NCBI GenBank assembly: GCA_016785955.1
Contig: JAEUWH010000042.1
Coordinates: 1 to 64,000, forward strand
Reading direction: 5' to 3'
DNA from: Pseudobdellovibrionaceae bacterium
GTDB lineage: Bacteria > Bdellovibrionota > Bdellovibrionia > Bdellovibrionales > Bdellovibrionaceae
DNA: 64,000 nt
The notes under the pieces were generated by a model that had not been told where the DNA came from, made no database searches, and saw nothing but the letters and a program-made list of their open reading frames with translations. Both the position numbers and the translations under genes were made by a program. Positions 1,800 to 49,237 of this stretch are shown in pieces (the first letter of the stretch is position 1; every line of letters begins with the position of its first letter).

Positions 1800-1807
1800 T
1801 TAGATTG

Positions 1808-3577
1808 ATGAGACATATAAATTTGCAAAAAAAAATAAGGGGATTGTTGTCATGGTTGACCATTTTCTTGATGGTTCCTGTGATAACGTGGGCGCAATTT
1901 CGCGAAGAAATCGGATCTCTGGAAGCAAAGTATGAAGCCAGGGCGCGAGCGGTGCTGAACACCGTTTTAAAACCATATGAGTACTCACTCGTTGTGGCTG
2001 TCGACATCGATCGCGACGAAGCCAGATTGAAAGAAATCGAAGACGAATACGAAAAAAATTCTTTGCCCGGAATGCCCGGTGTGGCTGGTTTTGATTCTCC
2101 AGCGCTTTCAAATCAATTATATGATTTGAAAACTAAAATTGAAGTGCATCTTGTGGTCGGTGAAACGGTCAGTAAAGATCGTCAAGACACCGCCAGTGCT
2201 TTGTTAAAAATGAAACTCCGAATTGAGGAAAAAAACGGAGACATGCTCACAATCGTTCGCTCAAAATTACCTACGGCCATCGACGAAGAAAATCCAGTTG
2301 AAAAATTACCCGAGTTCTCTTGGAAAATGTGGAGCCTCATTGTCATCGTGGCTTTGTTGTTCTTATCCGGAATGTTTTTCTACTGGAGCCGTCGTAATGC
2401 AACTCAAGAAAAACATAGCGAGTCGCATACTGAAAATAATAAAACCGTGGATGCGGCCAATAGTGCTGCTGATAACGAATCCAGTGCCGAAACTGCTGGC
2501 GAACCGAAAGCTTCGGCCTATATTGATATACAGCTTGATCCCAGTGAGCTTTTATACGAAAGCAAGCAACAAATTTTATCCTTAGCGACACAGTACCCTC
2601 AAGCCACCATTCAAGCCCTGACCGAACATTTTCAAAAAGGTGAAGAACAAGACATCTTATTAATGTGTGAGTCCTTTGGTTTTGAAGTGGCCAAAAAAAT
2701 ATTTTCGGATTTATCTCCTCGCATTTGGGGGAAATTGGGATTCCTTTTGGTGCAACGTAAAGAAGTTCCTAAAACCTCGGCTTATTCGACAGCAGTGAAC
2801 TCGTGCAGTCGTATTATCCTTAAGAAGTTCTTAGAGATTGGTCAAGAAGACACCAAAAATCCATTCGGTTTTGTTTGGAAGTTGACGGCTGACGATCGTA
2901 TGAAGTTGCTCGAGGGTGAATCCACATCAAGTATTGCATTGATTTGTTTATACTCGGATAAGTCGCAGATGGCAGAACTGTTCGATAGCTTGACATCACA
3001 GCAGCAAGAAGCGGTCACAATGCATATCGTTCGGCTTGAAAAAGTGGCGGATAGCATGATTAAAACAGCAGTCGAGGCCCTAACAAAAAAATTACGTCTT
3101 ATCAAAGAGAATCCCGAAATGCTTACTAACGGAGTGGCCGTTGCTGCGGATTTGTTGAAAGCACTTCCCGCCGAAAAGGAACTTGTTTTCTTTGATAAAA
3201 TGCTACAGGACAATCCAACCCAAGCCGAAAAAGTTCGTCGATTTACGTTGATGTATCCTGATATGATTTTTGTCCCTAGTGATGTGATCGCTGATGTGGT
3301 CAGCCTCTTAGATTTAAATGTTATCGTCATGGCCCTTCGTAAAGGACACGATAATGTCCGCGCGCATATTCTGGCCTCGTTGCCACCGAAAAAAGCGATG
3401 ATGATCGAAAAAGATTTGAAATATATTGAAGCTAAGCCAACCGACAAACAATTAGCAGAAGCTAAACGCGCCATCGTAAAGGAAACAAGTGCTTTACTCA
3501 GTGCGCGTGGCATGGAACTCGAAACCTTGATTCCAATTGAAACTAAAATTCGTGATGTCAGTCAGGGAGCCGCGTAA
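1808..3577 (+). CDS. Membrane-anchored FliG-like protein with FliF-like periplasmic segment
   Basis: Predicted as a bitopic inner-membrane protein with its FliG-like part in the cytoplasm. Residues 1-29 form a signal peptide (positive QKKIR, hydrophobic core, ITWA end). Residues about 36-120 (ARAVLNTVLKPYEYSLVVAVDID) resemble the ring-building domain of FliF. One transmembrane helix spans about 175-193, followed by WSRR and a low-complexity linker to about 245. The rest resembles the middle and C-terminal helical domains of FliG: LEGESTSSIALICL recalls the FliG gE-pqtiAl motif, and MALRKGHDNVRAHILASL recalls ALkGa--elrekil. FliG is normally a soluble switch protein of about 335 residues that MotA pushes against. 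Here it is tied to the membrane and periplasm. It heads an operon that includes MotA and MotB. A TTG at 1805 is an alternative start; no clear ribosome-binding site precedes either. Confidence 0.7.
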   Translation: MRHINLQKKIRGLLSWLTIFLMVPVITWAQFREEIGSLEAKYEARARAVLNTVLKPYEYSLVVAVDIDRDEARLKEIEDEYEKNSLPGMPGVAGFDSPALSNQLYDLKTKIEVHLVVGETVSKDRQDTASALLKMKLRIEEKNGDMLTIVRSKLPTAIDEENPVEKLPEFSWKMWSLIVIVALLFLSGMFFYWSRRNATQEKHSESHTENNKTVDAANSAADNESSAETAGEPKASAYIDIQLDPSELLYESKQQILSLATQYPQATIQALTEHFQKGEEQDILLMCESFGFEVAKKIFSDLSPRIWGKLGFLLVQRKEVPKTSAYSTAVNSCSRIILKKFLEIGQEDTKNPFGFVWKLTADDRMKLLEGESTSSIALICLYSDKSQMAELFDSLTSQQQEAVTMHIVRLEKVADSMIKTAVEALTKKLRLIKENPEMLTNGVAVAADLLKALPAEKELVFFDKMLQDNPTQAEKVRRFTLMYPDMIFVPSDVIADVVSLLDLNVIVMALRKGHDNVRAHILASLPPKKAMMIEKDLKYIEAKPTDKQLAEAKRAIVKETSALLSARGMELETLIPIETKIRDVSQGAA

Positions 3578-3579
3578 AA

Positions 3580-6500
3580 GTGAAATTATACCACTGGCTT
3601 TTAGTCCTCATTACTGCGTTGAACTTGGTGGCATGCTCGGATTCGGGTGTGCAAGGCACCAGTCTGTACAGTGCATTCAAAGGTTTGTCGAAAGCAACAC
3701 CAATCAGTCCGACCGCCGTTCGTTTGAATTGGGGGTTAGATTCTAAGTACGCCGAATACAGAATTTATGAAAACGATGGTGCTAGCCCGATCAAAACCGA
3801 AACATTTTCGACTGTCATCGTCGCGGATTTACAACCAGGATCGACGTACTCTTTCATGGTCTCTGGTTACTCGTCGACAAACGGTGAAACATTCTTGGGA
3901 GAACGGCAAAGTGTTAAAACATTTGATCGTTTTGCGGGTATCGAGGCTGCTGGTGTCGTTGTCAAATCTTCTTCTGAGGTGAAGTTGTCATGGAAAACAA
4001 ATTCAGAGACAACGAAATATAAAATCTATTACAAAGTCAAAGCTGACAATTGGAGTTTTACCGCACCCAACGCCATGGTCGAAGGGGCAAACGAATATAC
4101 AGTTTCGGGATTGACCTCGGGAGCATCCTATTGTTTTTATATCGTGGCCAGTTATCAAGACGAAACATCTGAGCCGGCCGTCACCGATATCGCAGCTGTG
4201 AATGCTGGCGCGCCTTGTATACAGTTAACGACGCAACTGGTGGGACTGCCATCGGTTAATATTAATAATGTTGTACCTGGAACGTTTCCTTGGTTTTGGG
4301 CATCTAACGGTGATCCCAGTTATAAAACAGAAATTTATGAAGGCGATACAAACATTCGAGTCGCCACTCGAACGGGAAATGGAACATTCCGCGCATTCGT
4401 CAATACCTCGCAAGGATCGAAGCGTTATTATGCCTTGGTATCTGACGCTAGCCAAAACGTAGCGCGAGTAGAAGTGGGTTCGATCGGCACCGTTGTTACC
4501 GATCGTGTTTCCGTACGAAGTTTAAACGCCACAGGGAATTTAGGCCCGATTTATCCGCCCGTATTGGCTGGGGGACGAGGACAGCAAAATCTTGGCAATA
4601 GCATTGTTTCTGGGGATTTCAATTGTGATGGATTAACTGATATTGCCGTGGCTTCTTATAACTCGGTGCCGTTTGTTACAGATCGTCACTATACCCAAAT
4701 AGGTTCCGTATCTGTCTACTATACTTGGCAACCACCGGCCTACTTGGATCCAGAAACAAACTTAACCGTGACACCACCTTTAGAATTAAAAACGGACGTG
4801 GCTCCGGCCGCGTCGGCTGTGTTTCCAAATGCACAGTTGATCACCTATCCTGTGACTGTCTCGGCGGCACAAATAGGAAAACGTCTCAGCGTAGGAAATT
4901 TTAATGGTGATTGTTATAACCGTAACGTCCAGGATCTAGCGCATCCCGAAATTTTACGCGGGCGATGTGATGCGGTTTACATGAGTCTTTATAATCCTTC
5001 GGCTTCTAAGTATGAAAAAGTTAAAACGTGTGATGATTTGGTCATTGCCACCAGCGCCGGGTATTTTTACACCGTATTTGGTGATCCTGTCGATGGTCTG
5101 GTGACGGGTTCAATGTCAAACACCGCCGGTGAGGATGAACTCACATGTGATGCGTCCTCGTCTACGTGCCGTGCGGCCCGCTATACGACTCCGGCAACGT
5201 ATGCAAACGCGTCGTTTGGTAACGGACTGACAACGGGTGATTACAATAATGATGGCTATTCCGATATCGCCGTTTCGGCGGTTTCAGGGACACGCACAGA
5301 TGTCTTAGTTTATCGCGGTTCACCCCAAGGAATTATTCCTCATGGGAATTCTAAATCGCATGCTTACATCAACCCCTTAGTGGGTGTGGCTACTAATTAT
5401 GTCAGTTATATTCCTTTGGCTAATAAATCAAATACAGAAGTTGTTCAAGCTGACCGATTTGGAGTGACGCTGGGTACGGCTTATAATTCTCGCTATTGTG
5501 TCAATAACTCCCCGGCCGGCTATGTGTTTCGCACCAGTGGTATCCCACCAAAAAATGGTTATCATGTAAGTAAGTGTGATGACCTTGTCATTGGTTCGCC
5601 AGGTCGAAGTACGAGTCGTGGTTCGATCTATACATGCAAAGCCACCATTCATTTTGGCAGTGCGGATCCTCAACGTATTTCTCAGTGGACGTGTTTGGAA
5701 CACTATCCTAGTGATTTGGTCGGAACGGATGCTCAGTATGGTCTGTCGATCATGGGTGTGAAAAATCAAAATGGTTATCCCATGGCAACAAATATTCGTG
5801 CCAGCATTGCGGCGAATGCGCTTCCCGATGTTACCGGCGCGCTATTCGTGGGTGCTCCGTACGCGACATTTAATGGGTATGAAGAAGCCGGAAAAGTGTA
5901 TGGTTACTATGTCACGCCAACCAGTGCGAATTACTCCAGCGGCGGGATTCAAGGCATCTTGGGCTCAGGATCTCATGCGGCGACGGCCGTTAACACAATC
6001 CCCTGTGATGCCACTAACACCAATGTTATTAATGGATCATTACGTCAGTGCGAACACCAAATTATATCGGCGTCACCGGTCAACGCCTGGGCACGCTTTG
6101 GCTATTCTTTGGGAACCATTCCAGATCGTATTGGAGGCGTGGATCCTTGGATGCCCATGTTAGCCGTATCAGCTCCTTACCGTACAACAACCGATTCCAG
6201 TGGAAATTCTATTGCCAGCACGGGCAGTGTATTTTTATTTCGTGGTGATATCTCGACATTCATGAACCAAATTGATGGCATCGAAGAAATCACCGTTCCT
6301 AAGTACAATGCCGATGTGCCACCACCGGGAAATCCCGTGACAGGCAAAACATGGTATTCGGGTGGCGTCAGTCCTTATGGACCAAATATCATTTATCCCA
6401 CAGGGTTAACGGCCTATTCTTATTTTGGAATGGGCGGAATTGTTGGTGGCAGTTTCAATGGTGATACGTACGCCGATGTGATTTCAACGGCCATGGAACA

Positions 6501-8247
6501 AAACTCTCCCAGTTCTGCCAATGGGGGAATGTATGGATTTTTCTCGTCTCAAGGGACGTTTAATCCTTCGGTCAGCAAAGCAGATATAAAAATTACGGAG
6601 AATCACAGTCTTGAAGGTAACTATCGTTTCGAGGAAGCTCAGGTTGTTGGTGATTTAAATGGCGATGGTTATGACGATGTCGTCAGTCACTTGAATAATA
6701 ACGGGCGCTGGGTTTTAGTCGTGTACTATGGATCGTCGATGGGGTTAGTGAAAACGCCAGCTCCCAGCTATACAGCTGTGGGACTGCAGCCAAAACTGGT
6801 GCGTTCGGTGACAGACTCTATGCTGGGTGCCAAATTTTACCGTATTGGTGACAATAATGCCGATGGCTTTGATGACTTATTAGTACTAGGCAGTGGTGCA
6901 AGCTATATATACTTTGGTTCGTCGTCTGGTCTTGTCACATTGGCGGAACCTGATATCTCGCCTATTGGAAAAAATCCTTTAAAATTCGCGCTGTCTGGCT
7001 CGGGCGTGTTGCAGTTCAATGCGACTTCGAATAATGTCGATTCCTATCCGACATCGCTAGATAGCATTGGTGTGAATAGTTATATTCAAGGCGTTGCATA
7101 TGGTCGATACAATGATGACGAGTACAGTGATTTTGCTATTCGCATTGGCTCGAGTTCGTTAAATGTTCACACCTCGGTACAAAACAGTAATTTAACATAT
7201 ACAGCTTATGGACGTGTGTTCATTGTGTACGGCGGTGCCAGTGGCCCTAATACGAATCGGGTTACGGGTCGAATTACGATGAACAATCCAGACGAAGTCG
7301 TTGTGGATAATCCATGCGATACGGCAACTAAATTGTGTAAAGTGCAAATGCTGGCGTCGTTTGACAATACGGTGGGAGGAGCATTTGGCTTTGGCTTGGC
7401 AACTCGAAAAGGCAGTAACTCGGCAACCAGTGATCAATTTGATGGTTTAGTCATTACGAATCCAACCATCAATTCCAATGATGGGCGTGCCTATGTCTAT
7501 AAAGGATCGATTCGTGGTCTTGAGGCCATTCCGATACAAACCTTGGTTTCACGAAATACTGGCAGCTATTTTGGTTATTCCGTTGTCGAGGCTGGCGACA
7601 TCAATAGAGATGGCTACGCCGACCTTGTGATTGGTAAAGGATCCACGGATATATCGTCAGGGATCACTGTTTTCTATGGCGCCAAAGTGGGTGGACAAAA
7701 TGCCTACTATGGAGCGGGATCTTTGGCGTCCACAAATTTTTGGGCGGCACCAGCGATTGACGATAATGCTCGTCATACGTTGGTAACAAATCCTCGTCCG
7801 CAAGTGATCGTACCCAATCTTGTGGTCAGTGGTGATGAATTCGGACGGGGAATCGCAGCGGTTGGTGACTTCAATTTAGATGGTTATGCCGATGTGGCGA
7901 TGAACGTGTCTAATGGGGACTTCACGCTTTCTGGAACTTTGCAAGAAACGGGATATGTTCTTGTTTATTTTGGAAGTGAAACAGGTTTGCAAAGTATGGA
8001 TACTGCGACCAATATTCCGCTATCGCCGACGCCCTACCCACGGTGTTATGGTGGTACGACCTCATTGTGTGAACCTTTTCAAGTTTTCTTACCGAATGCG
8101 ATCGATTTTGAATACACGCTGATTGGTCCGCATTCAGTCGGAGATATCAACGGTGATGGATTAAATGACTTACTCGTTGGTGGTTATGGACGTAATCATC
8201 CAAGTGGCAAAGCGATTTCATCAGGGGTGCTGTATGTGCTTTACTAG
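3580..8247 (+). CDS. Giant surface lipoprotein with FN3 domains and FG-GAP repeats
   Basis: A 1555-residue predicted outer-membrane lipoprotein: signal peptide with lipobox LVAC (Cys19) followed by Ser, which does not signal inner-membrane retention. Two or three fibronectin type III-like domains follow (residues about 35-300; e.g. SPTAVRLNWG, LQPGSTYSFMVSG). The remainder holds about ten FG-GAP/VCBS-type repeats with calcium-loop motifs such as GDYNNDGYSDIAV, GDLNGDGYDDVV and GDINRDGYADLVIG, which normally build an integrin-alpha-like seven-blade beta-propeller. Cysteine pairs lie between blades. Such proteins are calcium-dependent adhesins or surface scaffolds. The GTG start has AGGGAG 10 bp upstream and follows the FliG-like gene by 2 bp. 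The next gene is a tandem paralogue. Ligand unknown. Confidence 0.82.
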   Translation: MKLYHWLLVLITALNLVACSDSGVQGTSLYSAFKGLSKATPISPTAVRLNWGLDSKYAEYRIYENDGASPIKTETFSTVIVADLQPGSTYSFMVSGYSSTNGETFLGERQSVKTFDRFAGIEAAGVVVKSSSEVKLSWKTNSETTKYKIYYKVKADNWSFTAPNAMVEGANEYTVSGLTSGASYCFYIVASYQDETSEPAVTDIAAVNAGAPCIQLTTQLVGLPSVNINNVVPGTFPWFWASNGDPSYKTEIYEGDTNIRVATRTGNGTFRAFVNTSQGSKRYYALVSDASQNVARVEVGSIGTVVTDRVSVRSLNATGNLGPIYPPVLAGGRGQQNLGNSIVSGDFNCDGLTDIAVASYNSVPFVTDRHYTQIGSVSVYYTWQPPAYLDPETNLTVTPPLELKTDVAPAASAVFPNAQLITYPVTVSAAQIGKRLSVGNFNGDCYNRNVQDLAHPEILRGRCDAVYMSLYNPSASKYEKVKTCDDLVIATSAGYFYTVFGDPVDGLVTGSMSNTAGEDELTCDASSSTCRAARYTTPATYANASFGNGLTTGDYNNDGYSDIAVSAVSGTRTDVLVYRGSPQGIIPHGNSKSHAYINPLVGVATNYVSYIPLANKSNTEVVQADRFGVTLGTAYNSRYCVNNSPAGYVFRTSGIPPKNGYHVSKCDDLVIGSPGRSTSRGSIYTCKATIHFGSADPQRISQWTCLEHYPSDLVGTDAQYGLSIMGVKNQNGYPMATNIRASIAANALPDVTGALFVGAPYATFNGYEEAGKVYGYYVTPTSANYSSGGIQGILGSGSHAATAVNTIPCDATNTNVINGSLRQCEHQIISASPVNAWARFGYSLGTIPDRIGGVDPWMPMLAVSAPYRTTTDSSGNSIASTGSVFLFRGDISTFMNQIDGIEEITVPKYNADVPPPGNPVTGKTWYSGGVSPYGPNIIYPTGLTAYSYFGMGGIVGGSFNGDTYADVISTAMEQNSPSSANGGMYGFFSSQGTFNPSVSKADIKITENHSLEGNYRFEEAQVVGDLNGDGYDDVVSHLNNNGRWVLVVYYGSSMGLVKTPAPSYTAVGLQPKLVRSVTDSMLGAKFYRIGDNNADGFDDLLVLGSGASYIYFGSSSGLVTLAEPDISPIGKNPLKFALSGSGVLQFNATSNNVDSYPTSLDSIGVNSYIQGVAYGRYNDDEYSDFAIRIGSSSLNVHTSVQNSNLTYTAYGRVFIVYGGASGPNTNRVTGRITMNNPDEVVVDNPCDTATKLCKVQMLASFDNTVGGAFGFGLATRKGSNSATSDQFDGLVITNPTINSNDGRAYVYKGSIRGLEAIPIQTLVSRNTGSYFGYSVVEAGDINRDGYADLVIGKGSTDISSGITVFYGAKVGGQNAYYGAGSLASTNFWAAPAIDDNARHTLVTNPRPQVIVPNLVVSGDEFGRGIAAVGDFNLDGYADVAMNVSNGDFTLSGTLQETGYVLVYFGSETGLQSMDTATNIPLSPTPYPRCYGGTTSLCEPFQVFLPNAIDFEYTLIGPHSVGDINGDGLNDLLVGGYGRNHPSGKAISSGVLYVLY

Positions 8248-11200
8248 ATGGAAATCGATTTCAAAAATTCTGGCACTTTTGTTTTTTACGGCTCTGGCCG
8301 GTTGTACCGGTGGTGGTGTGCAGTCGGGTTCGGTTATTCAGACCTTTATCGGAGTGGATGAAATTATAGTGTTGTCGCCAACCACAGTGAAATTGACATG
8401 GAGTAAGTTGGCGAATGTTAAAGAGTACAAAATTTATAATAGTTCCAGTTCACAACCGATTGCCACCACGACTTTAGATTTTTATTTGATCAAGGATTTA
8501 ACGCCGAACTCGGTTTATACATTTAAAGTGGTGGGCACCAGTGATTCAGCTCAGTATGGTTTTGACCGTGAGTTGTCGGTGACGATGTGGCCACGATTTA
8601 AAGGTATCACGACGGCTACGCTTTTAAATAGCACCTCTGCCGAACTGACGTGGGACTATCCATATAAACCACAAAAGTACCAAGTGTTTTACCTTAAAGA
8701 TCAAACACCGACGGCGTCTAATACGGACAATTGGAAACGGGCCAATATGGAAACGGCCGACAATAAAATCGTGATTCCAAATCTGGCGGGTTCCAGTACA
8801 TACTCGTTTATTGTTCATGCCCTTTATCAAGAAAAAGAATCAGAGATCACGTCTCAGGTATTGAGTGTCAGTACGCCGGCGGGATTTACTCAGCCAACGT
8901 ACTCGTTGTCGCCAATCTCTATTGGGAACTTGCCGTCTATTTCTGTAACTCCTGTTCCCGACGCTAAACATGCGATTAATTTTTTCAAGACAACAGTTTT
9001 GTGGAAGGGAAATCCAATCTCGGATCCATTGATGGGACAGGGAAGTATCGTACTTTCTTCGGGTGCAAACTTGCCCCTAGGGAAAATCACTGATTTAAGT
9101 TTGAAAGTTGAATATCAAGATGGAAATTTAACAGAGTCCATGAATGTACCCGGCCTGTCGACGTTCATTAAAGGAATTCCTTTGCATATCGAAAAACCCT
9201 CGGTTCCGTCCTTAGGCAGTGGGACATCATATATGGGTAAGGCTGTTGCGGCGGGTGACTTTAACTGCGATGGTATTGATGATTTAGCTATTGGTATCCC
9301 AGATATCAGTTTGGCGCAGTTAGGCGTCAAAGTCTTGTCGGCCGGTGCGGTGTTTGTTTACTATTCAAAATTTAATGCGGGTACAAATTCCTATTTCTTA
9401 AATACGACAGGCACGCCGTCGCTGACCCCAAATAAGCCGGGTGAAGATCCACAAATCATTACCTTTGATGATTTAGCTTTACGTGAACGCTTTGGGTTTT
9501 CACTTTCGACGGGAAATTTGAACGGTGACCAAAATGGTTTGAACTCGTGCATGGATTTAATCGTAGGTGCGCCTTGGGCACGCAACACGATTGCGGGGCG
9601 TACGAACCAGCATGGCGCTGCGTATATGTTTTTCGGAAGTACGAAAGGCTTATCAGCACCGTCTCATGTCGCGGACATGCCGTCGAACACGTCAACGTGC
9701 AATGGGGACTTGCAAGCGTCTATTTGTACACCAGTTAAATTATTCGAAGATCCCTCTACGGTGCCTTCGGCGCTGACCACGGGACAGTTAACCTACACTT
9801 ATGCGGGTAACTCAAACAATTATCAAACAGGATACTCTGTTGCATTCGTTGGAGATTTCAACGCTGATGGGTTTGATGACGTGGCCATTGGGCAGCCTCA
9901 AACTCCTTTCGATGGTGTTATTCCCGGCTATAATACGTATAGCGGGCTTATCGAGCGCGTGGGTTCTGTCCTTATATTTTTCGGTTCTCGTTATGGGTTA
10001 GGGTACGAGTATCCGGCCGCCGGTGGTACGCCCAGTGCCGGAGACTTAAAAGTCCGTTATTTAAAAATTTTCCCGCCGGTGCCGATCACTGGTTCGCGGT
10101 TTGGAGAGGCCATCGCTGGTGGTGCGGACATTGATGGAAAAAATAAAATTCGTTTAGCTGATGGACGCTTGGCGGGTGGTGGCGATATGGTCGTCGGTGC
10201 GCCGGGTTTCTCGTATGTCGACTACACAACCTCAAGTCCTTTAAGAACAAAGATTGATACGACGCCCGATGCCGCATCGATCATTCGTCTGCCGTCTAGT
10301 CTTGGCTGGTGGCAACCGTCGGTTTCACAAACCTTATCATCGTCGACACACTATTATGGTTTTCCTCAAGGTGGAACGGCGGTTGGAGCCGCATTTGTTT
10401 ATTTTGGTCGAGGCAGTCCTACGGCGCCATCCATGGCTAATATCGAAGTGCCCTCGCGCGCATCGTTTTGGGCTTGTGGACGTCGAGGTTTAAGTTTTAC
10501 CGAACATTACTCGTGTCTAGTGGATAATACCAACGTGCGCATGTTAACACCACGTGATCCTAATTCGCGTGCGTTTGGTTCGGCGGTCGCGGTCCTTGGT
10601 GATAAATCTCGTTTTAAGGTGTTGTCAAATAACTCTGTTTTATTGACGGACACGGATCCTAATCCGGCAGTGCCTCGTCAATATTTTTCAGATACGAATC
10701 GCGATGGTTACGCCGATATTGTGGTGACAGCACCAGAGTCTAACGTCGGTTCAAAAGTACGTGTTGGTGTCTTGACGACATTTTATGGTAATCCCGATCG
10801 TTTATTTAATGTGGCGGACTTGTATAATCTTTATTCCAACAACACGCCGACCAGTGATTATAGAATTAATGATCCTACGTGTGCGTCGTATGGGACAATT
10901 TCGGCGCTTACAAAACAAAACTGTGCGCCCGTGGTGATCCGATCAACCTCACTGGCCGATAATTCCATGATTGGTGCCAACCAAAAACAAATTGCGGTTG
11001 GCGATGTCACGGGTGATGGGATCAAAGATTTAGCTATTGGAGACTCTGGAGATTTCGTCAACGCGGCGGGATCGGGTGCGGCCCTTGTTTTTACAAGCGC
11101 ACAAGGCCTAGGCTTGACGGCCACATATAAGAAAATTTATTCTTTCTCGGCCGATGCGGGAGACGCACTAGGTTCGTCGGTTACGCTCGGAAATTTCAAT

Positions 11201-13504
11201 GGTGATTTTAACTCTGTGCCGCCTCCAGATGGTGCAACGACGGCGAACACGACATTCCCCTACTTTGACGTGTTTTCAGGAGCACCCAATGATGAAGTCA
11301 GCCATTTTGGCGGTGGTGCGGTCTATGGTTTCTTAAGTTCGAATACGTCGCTTCCTTCGATTGTCAGTACGCACAGTATTTTGATTACTGAAAACATCGC
11401 TTCTTTCCAAGACTATGGTTTGGGCGAATCCCGTCTGGTCGGTGACGTCAATGGCGATGGTTACGATGATGCGGTTTCCAAGATGGTTGGGGTGACGGCG
11501 ACAGGGCAAGTCAGTTATGACGCCGTTATTTATTACGGTTCATCTATTGGCTTAGTGACGACAGAGTTCTGTATCCAAAATGCGAGTCGAGTATTTCGGT
11601 CTTCAAGTACATCGACCAGTGCCTGTTACCCACAGGTAACACCTTCGCCAGGGCTTACCAATTCAGATATTCAGTTGCCTCAAAAAATATCTCGCCCTTC
11701 GAACTTGGATCCGCTTTGGGCCTATATGGCGGTCTCCGCGGGTGACGTCAACAACGACGGCTTTGATGATGTATTGTTTATTCCGAGCCAAAGTGCGACG
11801 AATAGGTCGTCGACGTTGTACTTCGGAGCGCGTGGTGGCTTGCAAAATGTGGTTGACCCTTCATGGGAGCCGGCGGCCGGTGATCCACAAATTGTTTCGC
11901 AGGTTTTTACCGTGAATCAAGGTTCTGAAACTGACGAATTCAATATGCAAAGTAGTAATTTGCGTGTTCCATACGTTGCAGATGATTTCAATAAAGACGG
12001 TTATTCAGATCTCGCAGTGGGGATGCCGTTCGAGACCTCACCCGTGATGAACAAATCCAGTTCATTGCAACCGCAACCGGGATACCCAAACACAGTGGCT
12101 AACGGCAATGGCTGGGTGTGTGGTACCGATGTTCTGCCTGAATGTACGGGTGGGCAGGGAATTCAATATCACGGTACGATTCGTATTATTTATGGATCAA
12201 GTCGTGGCTATCAGACTCCACGCAATAACAATTATTCAGGGGACATCACGACCGGAAATACGGCGGCGATGGTCAACATGCTCGATACGGAAACGGGTGG
12301 AACGAAGCCATGTCAAAATAGTTCGTCTCCAGATCCTGTGTGTAAAGCGGCTTATATGCACAATCCTGTGTTTGAGAATATTAACTATGGTTATTCGCAA
12401 CTTTCGCATAAATTTGGCTTCAGTGTTGCGACGGCCGATATGAATAAAGACGGCTATCCAGATTTGTTGGTCAGCGCTCCGGGTTTCGAGGATGTCAGCT
12501 GTTGGCATGGCGGTAGTCCAAACCGTGACTATGGGCGTGTGTACATATTTTACGGCAGTGCCAACGGTTTATTGGCGGGAAATCAATTTGAATATTATAA
12601 TCGTGCTTACAATGTCAGTTGCCCGGTGCCAGCGGAATCAGATCCTGCTTCGGGTTTAATGGTCAGTTCTACGAAGGTTCGAGCCATTATTCCTTCGCTG
12701 GTGACTTATGGGGTCGGTGGCAACGTCACCGGTCGCCAATTTGGTATAACTCTTTCTTCTGCGGGTGATTTAAATGGAGATACTTATCCAGATCTTGCGA
12801 TCGGCGCGCCCACAGAGTCTTTGTCGGGATTGGATAATGTTGGACTGAGCTATATTTACTATGGTCCGTTGTGTGCTGCTGACAATGAATCCAACGTAAC
12901 CAGCGCATTTCAACGACGCGACGGGAGTGCGGACAACATTAATCGACAGATGTATTACTTAGGGCAAGCGCCTGCGGGAACGCCGACAGCAGATATTTTC
13001 AATGGGGCTTTGTCACCAACGTATACGGCCGCGTGCTTTCGTGGTTCTGGTTCGATGATGAAACCGATGCCACAAAAGTTTTACGTATTTGGTGCTGATG
13101 CGAATCAAAGTTGGGGTACAACATTGATTGGAAATAAAATTTCTAAAGGCGACTTTAATCTGGATGGTTATGACGATTTGATTGTCGGAAGTGCTATAAT
13201 GGGTGATGTGTCGCGTGAGTTAACTCGGGTGGGTGCAGGTATCGTGTATTTTGGAAGTTCGCGAGGTCTTTATACGGCCGAATACCCTAACACGATGGTG
13301 TCGGTCAATGCCAACATGCAAGCGCGGCCATTTACTATTTTGCCTACGCAGTTTCCTAACGAGTCACTATTTTTCTATGGTAATAGTTCGGTCGGAGACG
13401 TCAATGGGGATGGCACAATGGATGTGATGGCGACATCGAAGTATTATAACGGTACAAGTGATTTCAGGGGTATTAATTTAGGTTCGTTTTTCTTATTTTA
13501 TTAG
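8234..13504 (+). CDS. Giant surface lipoprotein with FN3 domains and FG-GAP repeats (tandem paralogue)
   Basis: A 1756-residue paralogue of the preceding gene with the same plan: lipobox LAGC (Cys24), two FN3-like domains (LSPTTVKLTWSKL, LTPNSVYTFKVVG), then about fourteen FG-GAP-type repeats with loops such as GDFNADGFDDVAIG, GDVNGDGYDDAV, ADMNKDGYPDLLVSAP and GDFNLDGYDDLIVG. That number is enough for two seven-blade propellers. The frame is open from 8165, but the ATG at 8234 has AGGGG 6 bp upstream and gives a proper signal peptide. It overlaps the upstream gene by 14 bases, implying translational coupling. Predicted to sit on the cell surface as an adhesin or as a scaffold for the motor components encoded downstream. 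Confidence 0.82.
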   Translation: MCFTRWKSISKILALLFFTALAGCTGGGVQSGSVIQTFIGVDEIIVLSPTTVKLTWSKLANVKEYKIYNSSSSQPIATTTLDFYLIKDLTPNSVYTFKVVGTSDSAQYGFDRELSVTMWPRFKGITTATLLNSTSAELTWDYPYKPQKYQVFYLKDQTPTASNTDNWKRANMETADNKIVIPNLAGSSTYSFIVHALYQEKESEITSQVLSVSTPAGFTQPTYSLSPISIGNLPSISVTPVPDAKHAINFFKTTVLWKGNPISDPLMGQGSIVLSSGANLPLGKITDLSLKVEYQDGNLTESMNVPGLSTFIKGIPLHIEKPSVPSLGSGTSYMGKAVAAGDFNCDGIDDLAIGIPDISLAQLGVKVLSAGAVFVYYSKFNAGTNSYFLNTTGTPSLTPNKPGEDPQIITFDDLALRERFGFSLSTGNLNGDQNGLNSCMDLIVGAPWARNTIAGRTNQHGAAYMFFGSTKGLSAPSHVADMPSNTSTCNGDLQASICTPVKLFEDPSTVPSALTTGQLTYTYAGNSNNYQTGYSVAFVGDFNADGFDDVAIGQPQTPFDGVIPGYNTYSGLIERVGSVLIFFGSRYGLGYEYPAAGGTPSAGDLKVRYLKIFPPVPITGSRFGEAIAGGADIDGKNKIRLADGRLAGGGDMVVGAPGFSYVDYTTSSPLRTKIDTTPDAASIIRLPSSLGWWQPSVSQTLSSSTHYYGFPQGGTAVGAAFVYFGRGSPTAPSMANIEVPSRASFWACGRRGLSFTEHYSCLVDNTNVRMLTPRDPNSRAFGSAVAVLGDKSRFKVLSNNSVLLTDTDPNPAVPRQYFSDTNRDGYADIVVTAPESNVGSKVRVGVLTTFYGNPDRLFNVADLYNLYSNNTPTSDYRINDPTCASYGTISALTKQNCAPVVIRSTSLADNSMIGANQKQIAVGDVTGDGIKDLAIGDSGDFVNAAGSGAALVFTSAQGLGLTATYKKIYSFSADAGDALGSSVTLGNFNGDFNSVPPPDGATTANTTFPYFDVFSGAPNDEVSHFGGGAVYGFLSSNTSLPSIVSTHSILITENIASFQDYGLGESRLVGDVNGDGYDDAVSKMVGVTATGQVSYDAVIYYGSSIGLVTTEFCIQNASRVFRSSSTSTSACYPQVTPSPGLTNSDIQLPQKISRPSNLDPLWAYMAVSAGDVNNDGFDDVLFIPSQSATNRSSTLYFGARGGLQNVVDPSWEPAAGDPQIVSQVFTVNQGSETDEFNMQSSNLRVPYVADDFNKDGYSDLAVGMPFETSPVMNKSSSLQPQPGYPNTVANGNGWVCGTDVLPECTGGQGIQYHGTIRIIYGSSRGYQTPRNNNYSGDITTGNTAAMVNMLDTETGGTKPCQNSSSPDPVCKAAYMHNPVFENINYGYSQLSHKFGFSVATADMNKDGYPDLLVSAPGFEDVSCWHGGSPNRDYGRVYIFYGSANGLLAGNQFEYYNRAYNVSCPVPAESDPASGLMVSSTKVRAIIPSLVTYGVGGNVTGRQFGITLSSAGDLNGDTYPDLAIGAPTESLSGLDNVGLSYIYYGPLCAADNESNVTSAFQRRDGSADNINRQMYYLGQAPAGTPTADIFNGALSPTYTAACFRGSGSMMKPMPQKFYVFGADANQSWGTTLIGNKISKGDFNLDGYDDLIVGSAIMGDVSRELTRVGAGIVYFGSSRGLYTAEYPNTMVSVNANMQARPFTILPTQFPNESLFFYGNSSVGDVNGDGTMDVMATSKYYNGTSDFRGINLGSFFLFY

Positions 13505-13519
13505 AACGTGGAATGTAAT

Positions 13520-16500
13520 ATGAAAAAAACCATTTTTGTATTTTTGTGTGTTATATTTTTAATAGGTTGTACGGCACAAGAGAAGTCGTCTCCGATCATT
13601 ATTCCGCCCGGGTCAGAGGTCCAATACTCAAATGCCGAGTTTGTTCAACTGGCCAAAGAATTCTATTCCGTAGAACTTAAAATGTACGATCGTCAGAGCA
13701 AAAAGTTTATTGCGATCGAAGATCTAACGCCCAAAGATAGAAAAACAGATCTTAAAAATATTTCTTATATCATTCCTAAAGACAAAGATTCGCAGGGATT
13801 TTATATTCTTGATGTGCAGATGTCTCGATTAGGTATGGGATTTCAGGCGATCGTTTTACCAGGTGTTGTGACAACGCCAGACATAGCCACCACGATGGCC
13901 TATGAACTGTTGATGAATTATCCCAAAAAAGAGATCTTTGAAAACAGTATCGAGTTTGTCACCGCCATCGAAAATTTTATTCGTAAAGACCTAGCGGACG
14001 TAAATGCCCGTGTGCAATTTCCCGAGGATTTAGGTCTAAATGGCAAGTATCGATTTTATAAAAATGGTGTTTCCAGTCGAATTGATTTTTTAAAGTTAGT
14101 TAAGTCAGGAAATATTGAATTTAATTATAACAATCAAGGAAATATTCTTGGAGAACCCTATCCATTTGGTAAAAAAAATTCGATGCCGGGACTCGATACG
14201 TCGAATTCGACGCCGCTCAGTCGCGAGGTTCGCGGTGCTGAAAAATCCGAGATAAAAATTCGTGGATTTGCCATGGACCCCGACAATGATTTTATTTTGT
14301 ATCAATGGTATAAAGAAGGAACCTACTATAACAACAAACCAAAAGAATTTTTTTGGACGCCCGATTTTTCAGATAGTAAAGTGGATCCCTATAAGGTTAA
14401 ACTAGAGATCAGCGACGGGGGGCCCGTTCAAAGCTATGAATGGAATCTGATCGTCGACAATTTGAATCGTAAGCCCTATGTAACCAAAAACTGCGTGAAC
14501 ACGGTCAAGGAATGGGAAACGTACACGTGTAAAATCTCGGCGCAGGATTTTGATGGCGAAGCCATTTCATTCACTGTGTCTGATAGTGCGGTGAATGCAC
14601 GCATCAAAGTCAATGGCCAAGCCACGGATGATACAACCAGAAAAATCACGGTCAGTAACGTGAATGAAATCACGATTGAATTCACCCCGAATAACGAAGA
14701 TGCCCTTCGTCGGGCGGGTTATATCGAAGTCAATGTGGCCGATGTGTCGGGTGGGACGGAAGTTGTTCCACTGAATATCTTCATCGAGGATATCAATACG
14801 GCGCCAGATATTGTCGGTTCGTACTCGGTCCTTAGTGTGGGTGGAGGACAGCATGAGTGGGACTATTGTGAAAAGAAAGATCCCGATGGTAAAGCTCCAT
14901 TCTTTTTTAAAATCGAAGTGCGTGATCCTGACAATCAGCCGTCGGCCTTTCCACGAAGTCAACATCCAGACAAAGTTCAAGTGAATGTGGCGGGGACGCT
15001 GTCCGACAAAGTTAGTCGTATCGATGATCCAACAGATGCCGACAACTATGCACCCGGAGCATGCCCGGCATCGACTGCGGAAGCCATGTTTTTCTGCTAT
15101 GTTTGGAAACCGACTCAAACTGAAAAGTCAGGAACATTGACTTTTACGATGAAAGATAATCATGGCGGAATTTCACCGCTTAAAATCGTGAACATCGTCG
15201 CCGAAGATAGAAATCAAAAACCGTGTCTGGGTGTAGTGGCGAAAACTGCGGTTATTGACGAACTAGGTCCAACCGTCAGTTATAAAATCAGTGCTAATGA
15301 TTCGGATGGGGATTTGCCCTATATGACGATTGAAAATTTAAGCCCAACGGTCATGCCGTTTTTGAAAGATTGCAGTTCGGCCGTACAGCCTCTTATATTG
15401 AAAGAGAACTTTAACGATACTTTTTTTGCGGGTAAAGTATACCGTATAGCCGAAGGGGCTGGTGGTGGCGCTTCATCCTGCACGCAAGCCAATTATAACA
15501 GCACGTACTCTGGAGTCGTGACATTTTCTAGAACAGTGCCGTTCGGAACCGATGTGGTGATCCCGTTGGGATATCCGTTGCAGACAGCCTATCCGGCCAG
15601 TGGGTATCGTATTAAGTATACAGTTGCAAAAGAAGTAACCATGGGACCGAATGATAAAAGTGTCACGGTGCCTGTTACGGCGACTGATCGTGCGGCCACT
15701 TCGGGGATGTTAAACAAAATCAAAACAAATGTTCCGACGGGATTCATACCACCCGCTGATCTTACGGTTAGTCATACGGCCACGATCACCAACAAAGGCA
15801 CGGCCACGCTGACTCGTACCAATACAGCCTCGGTGTTAAACCTGCCGACGGGAATGATGGTCACTTCGGACGAGCTGGTGTCTAGTTCTCAGAGTTCCTT
15901 GGTGTATGTTACAACGAAACGATACAAGATGGCTGCGGGCGTGGCCAGTCTTCCGATTACGTTGGTGCAAAAGAAGTTACGTTTAAATCCAGGAGCTTTA
16001 ACCGTTATGACGGGAGCGGCCTTGGCTGATGCCGGTATCACGGCTTCAAATTTAGGAATTATTTCGGGTGAAGTGGGTTATACTCTGGCTCAAGAAAATA
16101 AAACAGGAGTCGATTTGAATGTTGATAACTTCTGTTGGAATATTTGGGCAGAAGATGGGTATAAAGTTCCAGCAAATTCGACGTTGCAATTTGTTGGTAT
16201 GGCTCCGGCCACGGGTCTGACACTCAGTAACTCGCTGATTGTGGATTTATTGGGGATTGTGACGGTGACTCGCACAAATACATCTGCGCCTTTGACAATT
16301 GCCGCGGGAACGGTCTTTAAAACGGCCAATGGATCACAATACCGCTCGAATGCTAACGTCACACTGGGGTCGGGCCAGGCGACGGCAAATTTGAATGTCC
16401 GACGAATTAATCATCTTAGCCCACTTCCCGTAACCAGTACCAGTGCCGTTGATCCAGGGGCGTTGAACCAATTCGTAGCCGCACCACCACAGGCGGGAAT

Positions 16501-19500
16501 GACGGTTGTAAACCCGACGAATCTTTTTGATTTTGGAGATGTTATATTTACGCGAACCGATGTGACATCGGCGTTAACGATTCCGGCTAATACAGCTCTG
16601 AAAACAGCGACGAATTTTGAATTTAAAACAACAGCGGCCGTAACGATGGACATCGGTCAGTCCAAGGCTGAAGCGCCCGTGCAAAATGTATCGCCGACTT
16701 CGATTGTTTACAATACCGGAGCGAATCGTCTATGTCTGGGCTTTAGTGATTTGAACTATATCCCAAAATTTATTTCATCACTATCGGCCGTAACGACAGA
16801 GGGTACCAATACGATTGATTTTCCCATCGAAGTGAACGACAATATTTCAGACCCCGATTTTCCAAATGACCCTTCCGACCGTCACTGGTTCACGATCACC
16901 AACCTAGGGGCTGCGCCCACAGGCACGATCCTGTTTTGCCGTGACCCCGGAGACAATCCCGCAAATGTAAATTCACCAGCCTGTGTACCGTGCTCGTCAC
17001 CGGTCGCGGCAGATTATTGGGAATCGGCTCGTTGTTATATGCGGTTTGCCCCGAATATCGCTCATACGGTGACTTCTGATATTACGAAGACGTTTAGTTT
17101 TGTTATATCAGCGAATGATAATGGTATGACTGTTCCGTCTGGCACTAACGTCGCGACGCAAACGCTGTCGGTCACCGTCGCTGAATTGAATGATCCACCG
17201 GTGCCCACCGATTTGGCGTGGAATCCTTTAGCAGGGAATACTCATTTAGCGCCACTGAACCTGGGTGGGTTTACCGAGGGAACTTTAAATGAATACTTCA
17301 TATATGCTTCGGACCCCGATCGTTTGGCGAACAATAAAAAAATTGCGTTCAGTCTTGAGGCTCAAGTTTATGACATTTCGACCAGTACATGGGTCAATCG
17401 ACCTTCCGGTATGAGTGTAGGGGTCGATACTCCTAATGATGACCCATTTGGTACGACATGGGGCTCGCGGTATCGCGGCAAAATATTTTGGACTCCCACT
17501 GATGCGGAAGCGAAAAAATTCGCGTCGCCATTAGGATTTGTGGTGAAGGTCAAGGTTTCGGACGCCAGCGGGACGGGTGTATATAATTTTGCGTATTACA
17601 AAGTTTCGGTTGTGAATATTAATCAGTTGCCATTTTTAAATGCGGCGGTGACCTTGAGTGCGGTGGCGGATACGTACTTTACGAGCTCGACTATTGTCAT
17701 CAGCGATAAAGATTTCTCCAGTGTTGGGGCCCCGGTTAATTTTCAAACCAGTTTAAGCCTTTGCAGTCCTAATTCAACGATCAATTGTGCAGCTCCGTTA
17801 ACGGGTTGGCCCGATGAAGTTTTAACTTATGATCCATTATATATGGGAAATTCAGCGGTTGCTTCATGTCGCACAGGCAGTAATTTAAAGACTCAGTTCG
17901 CGTTGCCTTATTTGACCCGCAGTGCCTCTGGCACGGTGGCAGCAGATCGAATTTCATATACCTATAGATTCGATTGGTGCCCTCAAAAGAGTCATATAGG
18001 AAATCATACGATATTTGTTAATATGAGTGATAATGGTGACAAAGACCGAAATAATTTGGCGTTGCCTTCACAAGAGGTCATGGCTCCGATTACCTTAAAA
18101 GTCGTGGCACCCGTATACTTTATCAGTCCCGGAAAAAATTCGGCGGGCACGGTTGTTCATTACATGAAACGGGCATTTGCGGGGCGGCCTTACACATATA
18201 AAACAATAATTAAAAACTCGAAGGGTAATGCTGTTACGTATACATTGCTGACTGCACCCACGGGAATGACCGTCAATACATCGGGCGTGATTTCTTGGAC
18301 ACCGACCAATGATCAAATTACTTCGGTGGATCCGTCTACGTGGCCAACGGTTCAAGTGCGTGTGCGAGACAATGCAACGGGCGAAATAGATACGGCCAGC
18401 TTTCGGGTTGAAGTCAAAAACATGTTATCACCAGTGCAGGCATCGCCGGTGATCGTGGATCAAAACCCGTTGACATCAGCAACGAGTGTCAAAGAACGCG
18501 TGCGAAAAAACTTTTCGGTCGTTGCGAGTGATGCGAACAGTGATCCACTTTTTTATCGTTGGTATTTGGATGATGTATTGGTTTACGATGCATCCTCGAC
18601 GTATGAATACTTTCCGGGAGTTTTGGATGGTTATACGGACCCTGATGGTGTGAACTCGTTAAAGCCAGGGCAACATAAAATTTTGGTAGAAGTGACGGAT
18701 GCATACAATACGGCATCATTCAGTTGGCTAGTTCAAGTTAAAAACACAGTACCCTCACCGGTATTAGCATTTAATTTATTGACCTATACCACAGGAATCA
18801 CGAACTTGGCGTGGGGGCCAGAGGCGAAAGTGGCTTTGACGTCGGGGGCGAATACCGTGAACTCGTTGGTTTTCTCGGGTAACTATAAGCGCAGTAACCA
18901 GGTTAAAAATTTCGTTTATAATTTAATTTTCCAAAACGGCAGTTTTGCGGCTTCGGCGTCCACCGTGAAAAGTATGGAAGTCTTGCAGTGGGCGGCGGGA
19001 ACAACCACCGAGCGAATTTCCTGGGAACCTGTTTCTGGTACTAATTTCAATATTTTGCTGACGTCTCAAATAAATCGGGAAGGCCCATTTAGTTCGTTGG
19101 TGAATGCGGCTCGGTTACCAAGCAGCTTAGGAATGACGGCTGTGAACGCAGCAAATTTGTGTAACGGTACGTGCCCCTTTACTTTGTATGGTGGTGCGGA
19201 CTCGTTTGGGTTTCGTCCTAGCACGACGTGGACGTCAGGATCGACATATGTATTTACGGCATCCAATGCTGCAGATCAGATTCTTTGGGATCGTGATGGT
19301 GGTACGTCGACAGTGTTTCAGACGTTGACGGGAAACTTTAGGGTGGTTTCTATGGCTACAAATCCAAATACAAAGCGATTGTACGCGGCAGTGCGGGATG
19401 TGGGCAGTCAAGTCAACCGTTTGATGGTGTTTGATATTTATCCTGTGACTTCAGGAAATCCACCGACATTGCTCGCGACTTTGAATGTGTTCGATGGTGT

Positions 19501-19900
19501 GATGGCGGATAATCGCATTTTGGATGTGGTTGTTGTACCCAATCTGAATAAAATTTTTGCATTGTTGCCAGGAACGGGTGGAATGGCGGTCTTAACAGAT
19601 AATGGTATGTCGACGCCGGTTAACGGTGACATCCAGTTTGTGGGGGTAACGGAAATTGGTTCATCGTATTCTGATGTTGTGGGTAGCGGACGAAAACTGG
19701 TTTACAACCCCACCGTCGAGCTTCTGTACGGCATTAGTAAAGATTCCAATCAGTTGTTTTCCTTGGACCCAGCCACGATGGAACTTAAGGTTTATGCCAG
19801 CAGTATCTCGGGTGGTTTTGATACGTTGGTGACCTATCCGAACGATAGTTTAACATTGGCCATCAGCAAGACTTTGGGCCAAGTTTTTATCGTAAAATAG
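13520..19900 (+). CDS. Giant lipoprotein with Ig/cadherin-like and baseplate-J-like repeats
   Basis: The largest protein in the window (2126 residues). Signal peptide with lipobox LIGC (Cys17). Residues about 220-600 contain Ig/cadherin-like domains with calcium-type motifs (AMDPDNDFILYQW, SAQDFDGEAISFTV, EDINTAPDIVG). Residues about 665-1075 hold four diverged repeats resembling the baseplate J-like beta-domain, with core patterns such as LTIAAGTVFKTANGS and LTIPANTALKTATN. More PKD/cadherin-like domains follow (LNDPPVPTDL, SVVNINQLPF), and the last 350 residues look like a beta-propeller (NTKRLYAAVRD, NPTVELLYGISKD). The start at 13520 has GTGGA 7 bp upstream; a GTG at 13508 is in frame. 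A long rod reaching out from the outer membrane is the natural reading. Gene 54315-57350 is the shorter counterpart in locus B. Confidence 0.72.
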   Translation: MKKTIFVFLCVIFLIGCTAQEKSSPIIIPPGSEVQYSNAEFVQLAKEFYSVELKMYDRQSKKFIAIEDLTPKDRKTDLKNISYIIPKDKDSQGFYILDVQMSRLGMGFQAIVLPGVVTTPDIATTMAYELLMNYPKKEIFENSIEFVTAIENFIRKDLADVNARVQFPEDLGLNGKYRFYKNGVSSRIDFLKLVKSGNIEFNYNNQGNILGEPYPFGKKNSMPGLDTSNSTPLSREVRGAEKSEIKIRGFAMDPDNDFILYQWYKEGTYYNNKPKEFFWTPDFSDSKVDPYKVKLEISDGGPVQSYEWNLIVDNLNRKPYVTKNCVNTVKEWETYTCKISAQDFDGEAISFTVSDSAVNARIKVNGQATDDTTRKITVSNVNEITIEFTPNNEDALRRAGYIEVNVADVSGGTEVVPLNIFIEDINTAPDIVGSYSVLSVGGGQHEWDYCEKKDPDGKAPFFFKIEVRDPDNQPSAFPRSQHPDKVQVNVAGTLSDKVSRIDDPTDADNYAPGACPASTAEAMFFCYVWKPTQTEKSGTLTFTMKDNHGGISPLKIVNIVAEDRNQKPCLGVVAKTAVIDELGPTVSYKISANDSDGDLPYMTIENLSPTVMPFLKDCSSAVQPLILKENFNDTFFAGKVYRIAEGAGGGASSCTQANYNSTYSGVVTFSRTVPFGTDVVIPLGYPLQTAYPASGYRIKYTVAKEVTMGPNDKSVTVPVTATDRAATSGMLNKIKTNVPTGFIPPADLTVSHTATITNKGTATLTRTNTASVLNLPTGMMVTSDELVSSSQSSLVYVTTKRYKMAAGVASLPITLVQKKLRLNPGALTVMTGAALADAGITASNLGIISGEVGYTLAQENKTGVDLNVDNFCWNIWAEDGYKVPANSTLQFVGMAPATGLTLSNSLIVDLLGIVTVTRTNTSAPLTIAAGTVFKTANGSQYRSNANVTLGSGQATANLNVRRINHLSPLPVTSTSAVDPGALNQFVAAPPQAGMTVVNPTNLFDFGDVIFTRTDVTSALTIPANTALKTATNFEFKTTAAVTMDIGQSKAEAPVQNVSPTSIVYNTGANRLCLGFSDLNYIPKFISSLSAVTTEGTNTIDFPIEVNDNISDPDFPNDPSDRHWFTITNLGAAPTGTILFCRDPGDNPANVNSPACVPCSSPVAADYWESARCYMRFAPNIAHTVTSDITKTFSFVISANDNGMTVPSGTNVATQTLSVTVAELNDPPVPTDLAWNPLAGNTHLAPLNLGGFTEGTLNEYFIYASDPDRLANNKKIAFSLEAQVYDISTSTWVNRPSGMSVGVDTPNDDPFGTTWGSRYRGKIFWTPTDAEAKKFASPLGFVVKVKVSDASGTGVYNFAYYKVSVVNINQLPFLNAAVTLSAVADTYFTSSTIVISDKDFSSVGAPVNFQTSLSLCSPNSTINCAAPLTGWPDEVLTYDPLYMGNSAVASCRTGSNLKTQFALPYLTRSASGTVAADRISYTYRFDWCPQKSHIGNHTIFVNMSDNGDKDRNNLALPSQEVMAPITLKVVAPVYFISPGKNSAGTVVHYMKRAFAGRPYTYKTIIKNSKGNAVTYTLLTAPTGMTVNTSGVISWTPTNDQITSVDPSTWPTVQVRVRDNATGEIDTASFRVEVKNMLSPVQASPVIVDQNPLTSATSVKERVRKNFSVVASDANSDPLFYRWYLDDVLVYDASSTYEYFPGVLDGYTDPDGVNSLKPGQHKILVEVTDAYNTASFSWLVQVKNTVPSPVLAFNLLTYTTGITNLAWGPEAKVALTSGANTVNSLVFSGNYKRSNQVKNFVYNLIFQNGSFAASASTVKSMEVLQWAAGTTTERISWEPVSGTNFNILLTSQINREGPFSSLVNAARLPSSLGMTAVNAANLCNGTCPFTLYGGADSFGFRPSTTWTSGSTYVFTASNAADQILWDRDGGTSTVFQTLTGNFRVVSMATNPNTKRLYAAVRDVGSQVNRLMVFDIYPVTSGNPPTLLATLNVFDGVMADNRILDVVVVPNLNKIFALLPGTGGMAVLTDNGMSTPVNGDIQFVGVTEIGSSYSDVVGSGRKLVYNPTVELLYGISKDSNQLFSLDPATMELKVYASSISGGFDTLVTYPNDSLTLAISKTLGQVFIVK

Positions 19901-21122: not shown

Positions 21123-21131
21123 GTGGATGTA

Positions 21132-22520: not shown

Positions 22521-22546
22521 TAACAACTTTGTTTTCGTCCCGATAC
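22521..22546 (+). promoter_or_regulatory. Weak sigma-28-like element before the PEGA/TPR lipoprotein
   Basis: CCCGATAC (22539-22546) matches GCCGATAA at 6 of 8 positions, and TAACAACT about 10 bp upstream matches TAAAGTTT at 4 of 8. The ATG lies 6 bases downstream. It may be an internal promoter for the lipoprotein-motA-motB part of locus A. Support is only the motif and its position, which mirrors 1772-1799 and 49238-49264. Confidence 0.25.
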
Positions 22547-22552
22547 GGAAAC

Positions 22553-44267: not shown

Positions 44268-44376
44268 AGTATCTTAAGAGTAAATAAACGATAGAAAAAA
44301 TCACTAAGAAAATGAGAAAAATAATTTGAGACAATAGTCTTGTTGTTTTCTACGACAGAATGCCGAACTGTTTGAT

Positions 44377-47451: not shown

Positions 47452-47463
47452 AGGAGAGAAAAA

Positions 47464-48246: not shown

Positions 48247-48278
48247 CTTATAATATAGCTGCCGAGCGGGAGTTTTCT

Positions 48279-49139: not shown

Positions 49140-49152
49140 GATCTGATCTCAA

Positions 49153-49172
49153 TTTGTATTATATAATACAAA
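49153..49172. repeat. Perfect 20-bp palindrome after motB (locus B)
   Basis: TTTGTATTAT and ATAATACAAA are exact reverse complements with no spacer. It sits between motB and the following operon's promoter, 66 bp upstream of the -35-like element. The AT-rich symmetry fits a regulator dimer site better than a terminator, as no T-run follows. Confidence 0.65.
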
Positions 49173-49237
49173 GCTTATTTACTTTAAAAGTGGAAAATCC
49201 TAATTTAGGCGACTTAATAAATTTCTGTTAAAATGAG

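Follow-up and report, generated by a model that had tools for sequence, protein, structure and literature searches.

Why should two giant lipoproteins with integrin-like repeats stand in one operon with the parts of a flagellar motor? The question is raised by the 64,000-nucleotide stretch of a Pseudobdellovibrionaceae contig that was analysed here (the window), in which eleven genes of one strand form a tight run (1805-27226), neighbours overlapping or lying a short way apart, and encode a rotor protein (the fusion), the FG-GAP lipoproteins FGG1 and FGG2, CAD, OMB, a VWA protein, a PEGA/TPR lipoprotein, MotA, MotB, X257 and X397. We infer, with moderate confidence, that the FG-GAP lipoproteins function as the outer-membrane module of an ion-driven rotary motor that lacks a flagellum although its rotor and stator parts are of flagellar type. 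A preliminary description of this DNA had noticed the two genes in their motor operon; what the present analysis adds is the FliF-FliG fusion, a second motor locus in the window and a gene order that is not conserved.

Two FG-GAP lipoproteins in a motor operon

The two genes had been described as spanning 3580-13504 and encoding over 3300 residues, and both open reading frames were confirmed, with a total of about 3311 residues. FGG1 (3580-8247, plus strand) is a lipoprotein of 1555 residues with two FN3 domains and FG-GAP repeats, and FGG2 (8234-13504, plus strand) is an FN3 and FG-GAP lipoprotein of about 1756 residues, whose listed frame begins at 8165 and for which the ATG at about 8234 was picked, as it yields a signal peptide. 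The Pfam family PF01839 (FG-GAP) matched FGG1 in 6 stretches (E 6.3e-30) and FGG2 in 12 (E 1.8e-57). Calcium loops counted by a strict regular expression numbered 7 and 11, and the earlier figure of about 10 and 14 is a fair count once relaxed loops are included. N-terminal FN3 domains and a lipobox in each gene were likewise borne out: fn3 matched N-terminally in both (2.2e-12 in FGG1 and 2e-8 in FGG2, two stretches each), and the pair carries the lipoboxes LVAC-S and LAGC-T. These lipoboxes suggest that the proteins are surface-exposed, and the FG-GAP module is probably located at the cell surface. Elsewhere in the 4.34-Mb genome, neither PF01839 (E <= 0.1) nor PF13517 (E <= 0.001) gave a match. 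The genes do lie between the FliG-like gene (1805-3577) upstream and the stator genes MotA (23465-24283) and MotB (24249-25298) downstream.

Structure prediction was the check proposed for the propellers, and a model of FGG1 residues 21-1010, based on an alignment with six relatives (mean pLDDT 68, pTM 0.61), gave a positive answer for the first propeller of FGG1. Residues 332-992 (312-972 of the model) superposed on integrin alpha propellers with a best Z of 24.5 (7usl) and an rmsd of 3.2 A over 361 residues in a second look with VIA; the best 50 of the VIA matches listed were all integrins, and the matched span was the whole seven-blade range. The top Foldseek rows were fibronectin FN3 fragments and integrins. 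As modelled, then, FGG1 332-992 is a seven-bladed propeller of the integrin alpha type. A sequence search of the PDB matched integrin alpha at FGG1 1282-1375, in the second half of the protein and outside the model (7ceb at 1302-1365, E 3.8e-9), and residues 993-1555 most likely form a second propeller, making two per FGG1. The central statement of the preliminary description, that integrin-alpha-like propellers are encoded on a motor operon, thus has the support of profile matches and of the predicted fold, and the propeller genes strictly co-occur with those of the motor.

The other large genes of the run are less readily classified. CAD (13508-19900, plus strand) is a lipoprotein of 2130 residues in which no Pfam family scored above the cut-off, and OMB (19947-21122, plus strand; 391 residues, signal peptide, no Pfam match) looks from its sequence like a putative outer-membrane beta-barrel. 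The PEGA/TPR lipoprotein (22529-23452, plus strand) matched TPR_2 at 1e-7 and PEGA weakly at 0.02, and has the lipobox LTGC. X257 (25267-26040) and X397 (26033-27226), both on the plus strand, each have a single N-terminal hydrophobic helix according to the open reading frame list and Pfam scan. Beyond the run lie R221 (27758-28423, minus strand) and F206 (28409-29029, plus strand), two small secreted proteins that look barrel-like. Near the operon on its other side, two small open reading frames at 278-811 resemble what we take to be a BrnT/BrnA toxin-antitoxin pair.

A fused rotor protein with a flagellar-type stator

The gene at 1805-3577 (plus strand), previously called FliG-like, is a natural fusion of 590 residues that joins a signal peptide, one FliF RBM3-like domain, one membrane helix (TM) and FliG, and it is the rotor protein of the set. 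It matched FliG_M at 2e-10 and FliG_C at 6e-10, and both families were found in all seven fusion members; the FliF Pfam model matched none of the seven. The likeness to FliF came from structure, where model residues 14-142 fitted FliF RBM3 with a Z of 11.1 (8z5v) and an rmsd of 2.7 A over 98 residues, the collar being skipped (second look with VIA). Other FliF RBM3 chains mostly gave a Z of 8.8-10.4, and the next unrelated chain, MamM, gave 8.2. Model residues 264-558 matched full-length FliG with a Z of 15.8 (8wiw). The model as a whole has a pTM of 0.31 and a mean pLDDT of 67, and its domain arrangement is unreliable. Its periplasmic part runs helix-strand-(insert)-strand-helix-strand, followed by the TM helix, and hhalign placed this part just before TM2 of flagellar FliF, weakly, with a probability of 9.9, where the highest of 50 column-shuffled controls reached 2.2. 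In the torque helix, the charged residues K516 and D523 (numbering of alignment A2) are invariant in 7/7 sequences and presumably correspond to the torque-helix residues of E. coli FliG.

The stator is of the flagellar type as well. MotA (plus strand; PF01618 1.5e-21) has PomA as its nearest PDB structure (8bri, E 2e-27) and is matched by the NCBIfam PomA/MotA models, and MotB, also on the plus strand, has the plug and the OmpA peptidoglycan-binding domain by Pfam and NCBIfam, with a YAD motif that is invariant in 14/14 sequences.

Co-occurrence and gene order among relatives

FGG1 was found in 6 of 59 relatives, and the full-length fusion in the same 6. Among the 140 genomes of the order, the PEGA/TPR protein occurred in 16 and the fusion in the same 16; the FGG1 profile matched these 16 and also G103, weakly, in an 835-residue open reading frame. 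In the 15 mapped loci of this kind besides the window (type-1 loci), the fusion, the PEGA/TPR protein and R221 were each present in all 15, and MotA, MotB and F206 in 13, followed by the VWA protein and FGG2 (12), FGG1 and CAD (11), OMB (10), and X257 and X397 (2 each), the last two being poorly conserved in sequence. Where large genes are absent, the locus is truncated at a contig end or by the slice taken (G071, G077, G090, G100, G001 and G057). In G059, which we take to be Bdellovibrio bacteriovorus HD100, F206 was probably lost to an overlapping frame during open reading frame calling. The order of the genes varies, in that the fusion opens the locus in the window and G002 but closes it in Bdellovibrio-type loci; the link among the genes of the motor set is therefore more than mere neighbourhood. 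The distance matrices of the fusion, MotA, MotB and PEGA proteins correlated with r 0.82-0.90, values as high as which arose in 0 of 2000 permutations and part of which is due to shared genome ancestry.

A search of wider genome contigs with the FGG1 alignment returned 26 loci, of which seven (L084-L090) were used and the other 19 were FG-GAP proteins of other lineages; the fusion protein as query gave no match in the same contigs, and a plasmid search with it gave two weak FliG matches. Loci L091-L109 hold FG-GAP proteins with GDFNCD- or GNFNGDC-type loops in Marinicella, Lysobacterales, Alcanivoracaceae and some archaea. A FliG-like match on contig C115 of G000 (E 2.6e-4) was dropped, its locus (L078, C115:8000-27999) having no matches to the motor genes; that locus encodes tandem secreted proteins of 490-660 residues with a common Cys-x-x-Phe-Tyr-like N-terminal motif.

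Further motor loci and a wider family

A second complete motor locus occupies 41830-57350 of the window, and there FN3/Ig lipoproteins replace the FG-GAP proteins. It begins on the minus strand with a VWA protein (41830-43191; PF13519 3.6e-9) and a secreted protein of 359 residues (43188-44267), and continues on the plus strand with a TPR lipoprotein whose N-terminal part is PEGA-like (44377-44991), a FliF-FliG-like fusion of 631 residues (44988-46883; FliG_M 2.8e-6, RBM3/TM profile E 1.3e-18), a small secreted protein (46873-47451), MotA (47464-48246; PF01618 1.3e-23), MotB (48279-49139; OmpA 3e-16, MotB_plug 7e-14) and three large lipoproteins (49273-57350) of 854, 825 and 1011 residues, with FN3, FN3 and Ig domains, respectively, and no FG-GAP by Pfam. 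The 359-residue, TPR and small secreted proteins were assigned from open reading frames and a Pfam scan; homology between OMB and the 359-residue protein was unsupported (hhalign probability 0.4). The source genome holds a third motor locus (L190, G000:C69:9393-13808), which comprises a PEGA-type lipoprotein, MotA, MotB, the fusion and a small secreted protein. Beside it, at C69:2030-9052, a giant Ig-like protein is encoded on the opposite strand.

The RBM3/TM profile, made from the periplasmic part of the fusion and its TM helix, matched 61 of 143 genomes of the class (E <= 0.001) and 109 of 368 genomes of the phylum (E <= 1e-6), while it gave flagellar FliF controls no more than 4-10 bits. 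Sixty family loci were compared, hand-picked for contig room, 20 from inside the order and 40 from outside it, where about 49 genomes had matched. The FliG part was present in the fusion frame of 46, MotA in 48, MotB in 47, a PEGA-type gene in 50 and a VWA gene in 3, the usual order being PEGA, MotA, MotB, fusion, small secreted protein and giant protein. Fourteen of the 60 had no FliG match in the fusion frame at 1e-4 and 12 were without MotA, so that degeneration, miscalled frames or truncation may affect some of the loci. Large frames rich in calcium loops and resembling FG-GAP proteins were found in only two, L289 and L290, by a crude calcium-loop expression; in these distant loci, very large lipoproteins with 13 and 7 loop motifs may represent a surface module of the FG-GAP type. 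The divergent locus L079 (G006:C1:2994000-3013999) has a VWA protein, a TPR lipoprotein, a 622-residue fusion, MotA and MotB, arranged as in the second locus of the window. One genome holds up to three fusion-motor loci, and these differ in their surface proteins.

Relation to the flagellum

The set could instead serve the polar flagellum as an accessory: it would supply a stator and rotor ring as alternatives to the flagellum's own and, with the giant lipoproteins as an outer-membrane or sheath disk, tune swimming without forming a separate machine. We consider this unlikely. MotA is clearly of the flagellar type, but where a full FliF would stand, the fusion offers a single RBM3-like domain with no collar and a single TM helix, and the source genome already holds separate flagellar FliF and FliG genes (C69:23093-25779) and two other MotAB pairs without an adjoining fusion (C30 and C46). 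The third motor locus lies about 8 kb from the flagellar genes on the same contig, yet the variety of surface proteins among the loci of one genome does not suit an accessory role, and neither does the distribution of the set: FliG matches occurred in 55 of the 59 relatives, nearly all in proteins of about 345 residues, as is usual for flagellar FliG, whereas the motor set occurred in only 6. Families for FliM/FliN, the export apparatus, rod, hook and filament were absent from the motor genes at 1805-29029 and 41830-57350 by Pfam, although parts from the flagellar locus might act in trans.

Earlier work on Bdellovibrio also counts for the accessory role. Morehouse 2011 reportedly found that each of the three MotAB pairs of HD100 contributes to flagellar swimming, and that study is cited by two papers with regard to the three pairs. 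For strain Tiberius, three MotAB pairs and two FliG copies were counted among the flagellar-related genes (PMC3539863); the rotor gene has therefore probably been noticed before, but as flagellar.

The VWA protein and the integrin analogy

The preliminary description had compared the propellers together with the VWA protein to the headpiece of an integrin, each supplying one half. One side of this analogy stands: the propeller is there, and the VWA protein (21123-22502, plus strand; signal peptide, no lipobox) has an intact MIDAS, its DxSxS being invariant in all 12 VWA sequences that cover the motif. The pairing itself is unsupported. The protein matched general VWA models only in Pfam and no PDB chain at 1e-3, it is not integrin-beta-like, and VWA genes also accompany sister motors in which FG-GAP proteins were not seen (window 41830-43191, L079, L302, L313 and L314); the integrin alpha/beta pairing was therefore dropped as the main reading. 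Since the VWA protein is found in motor loci both with and without FG-GAP proteins, we regard it as associated with the motor, its MIDAS intact, rather than as the propeller's partner.

A weaker form of the same idea is that the FG-GAP and VWA proteins adhere to prey or surfaces as an integrin-like complex, their linkage to the motor being a mere regulatory convenience. The integrin alpha fold, the calcium loops and the conserved MIDAS all agree with such a complex, and another MIDAS lipoprotein, Bd0875, is given a role in prey invasion (PMC11003981), which counts in its favour. Yet mere convenience would hardly keep the FG-GAP genes in strict co-occurrence with the rotor fusion while the gene order changes, and this, with the VWA genes beside FG-GAP-free motors, makes the adhesion complex quite improbable. 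The motor might also power display of the giant lipoproteins, as the energy source of an export or assembly system of the outer membrane. In favour of this idea stand the barrel-like small secreted proteins (OMB, R221, F206) and giant lipoproteins beside the motor in most loci, but the Pfam scans of motor genes showed no known secretion family, and we give it very little credence.

A candidate machine for gliding

In the separate rotary motor that we favour, MotAB, anchored to the peptidoglycan by its OmpA domain, would turn a ring of the fusion protein through the FliG part. There being no rod, torque would cross to the lipoproteins via the PEGA/TPR lipoprotein, X257, OMB and the small secreted proteins, and the calcium-type propellers and FN3 domains would hold a surface or prey as adhesive or load-bearing parts. 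The result would be gliding, prey grip or surface sensing. Gliding or prey grip as the output is a tentative prediction, and gliding in Bdellovibrio is our leading guess.

A recent review states that the Bdellovibrio gliding machinery 'remains unidentified' and calls its motor and adhesins a major open challenge (2026; PMC13104615). In HD100, the type-1 locus lies at 2,913,420-2,940,595 with its main genes on the minus strand and the fusion frame at 2,913,420-2,915,153, and its MotAB pair is, by position, probably MotAB2 (Bd3021/Bd3020; names as in PMC11323537). The RBM3/TM profile found a single fusion-type match in this genome in both the class and the phylum searches. The probable MotAB2 identity, taken together with the swimming role reportedly assigned by Morehouse, counts against gliding and against a separate motor. 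Many genomes of g6, the Bdellovibrio-like genus that includes HD100, also have no type-1 locus, and such loci therefore cannot be a universal gliding engine. Other gliding candidates, the Agl-type bd1480 (aglQ) and the VWA gene bd3099, are described as induced on surfaces in Lowry 2022 (PMC9140294), and they too count against a gliding role for the motor locus.

Even so graded, the gene set may encode a surface motor of a new kind in Bdellovibrio and its relatives, a proposal open to testing, and in the model predator it offers a genetically testable candidate for the motor and adhesins of gliding. Should the machine prove to be separate, the rotor and stator of the flagellum would have been put to a second use with no export gate, rod or filament, a case relevant to how flagellar parts come apart in evolution. 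Taken further, there may be a phylum-wide class of flagellum-less motors, with a fusion rotor, a dedicated MotAB and exchangeable sets of lipoproteins, in which the version with integrin-like propellers would move adhesins and power gliding or prey grip; we put this forward as a conjecture about which we are somewhat doubtful.

Comparison with known systems

To our knowledge, the non-flagellar ion-driven motors Tol, Ton, Agl, Gld and Zor work without a FliG rotor, and an open-access literature search, which left most subscription papers outside, turned up no description of a motor apart from the flagellum that pairs a FliF-FliG fusion with MotAB. Animal integrin alpha shares with FGG1 the seven-bladed FG-GAP propeller and its calcium loops. 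In integrin alpha, however, thigh and calf domains and a TM helix follow the propeller, whereas FGG1 and FGG2 begin with a lipid-anchored lipobox and FN3 domains and stop at the last FG-GAP unit. The I-like domain of integrin beta is set among hybrid, PSI and EGF domains, a context that the VWA protein lacks, although it has the MIDAS DxSxS itself. Bd0875 is likewise a VWA protein with DxSxS in a predator, but it is a lipoprotein with a cap region, whereas the VWA protein of the window has no lipobox and belongs to a motor operon.

Among gliding machines, Agl-Glt of Myxococcus offers the analogy of an ion-driven stator coupled to the outer membrane; the stator here is MotA/MotB with an OmpA domain acting with a FliG rotor, not the TolQ/TolR-type AglR/AglQ/AglS. 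In the GldLM/T9SS gliding of Bacteroidota, too, a rotary stator is proposed to move surface adhesins, but the present set has a FliG rotor, and a GldKLMN-type match was absent from the Pfam scans of the motor genes. With the flagellar motor (FliF-FliG-MotAB), the set shares a FliG-type rotor part with M and C domains, an RBM3-type ring domain and a PomA/MotA and MotB stator with plug and peptidoglycan-binding OmpA domain. Where the flagellum has FliF with RBM1-3 and two TM helices, a single fused rotor protein here has one RBM3-like domain and one TM helix after its signal peptide, and giant lipoproteins take the place of the flagellar structures.
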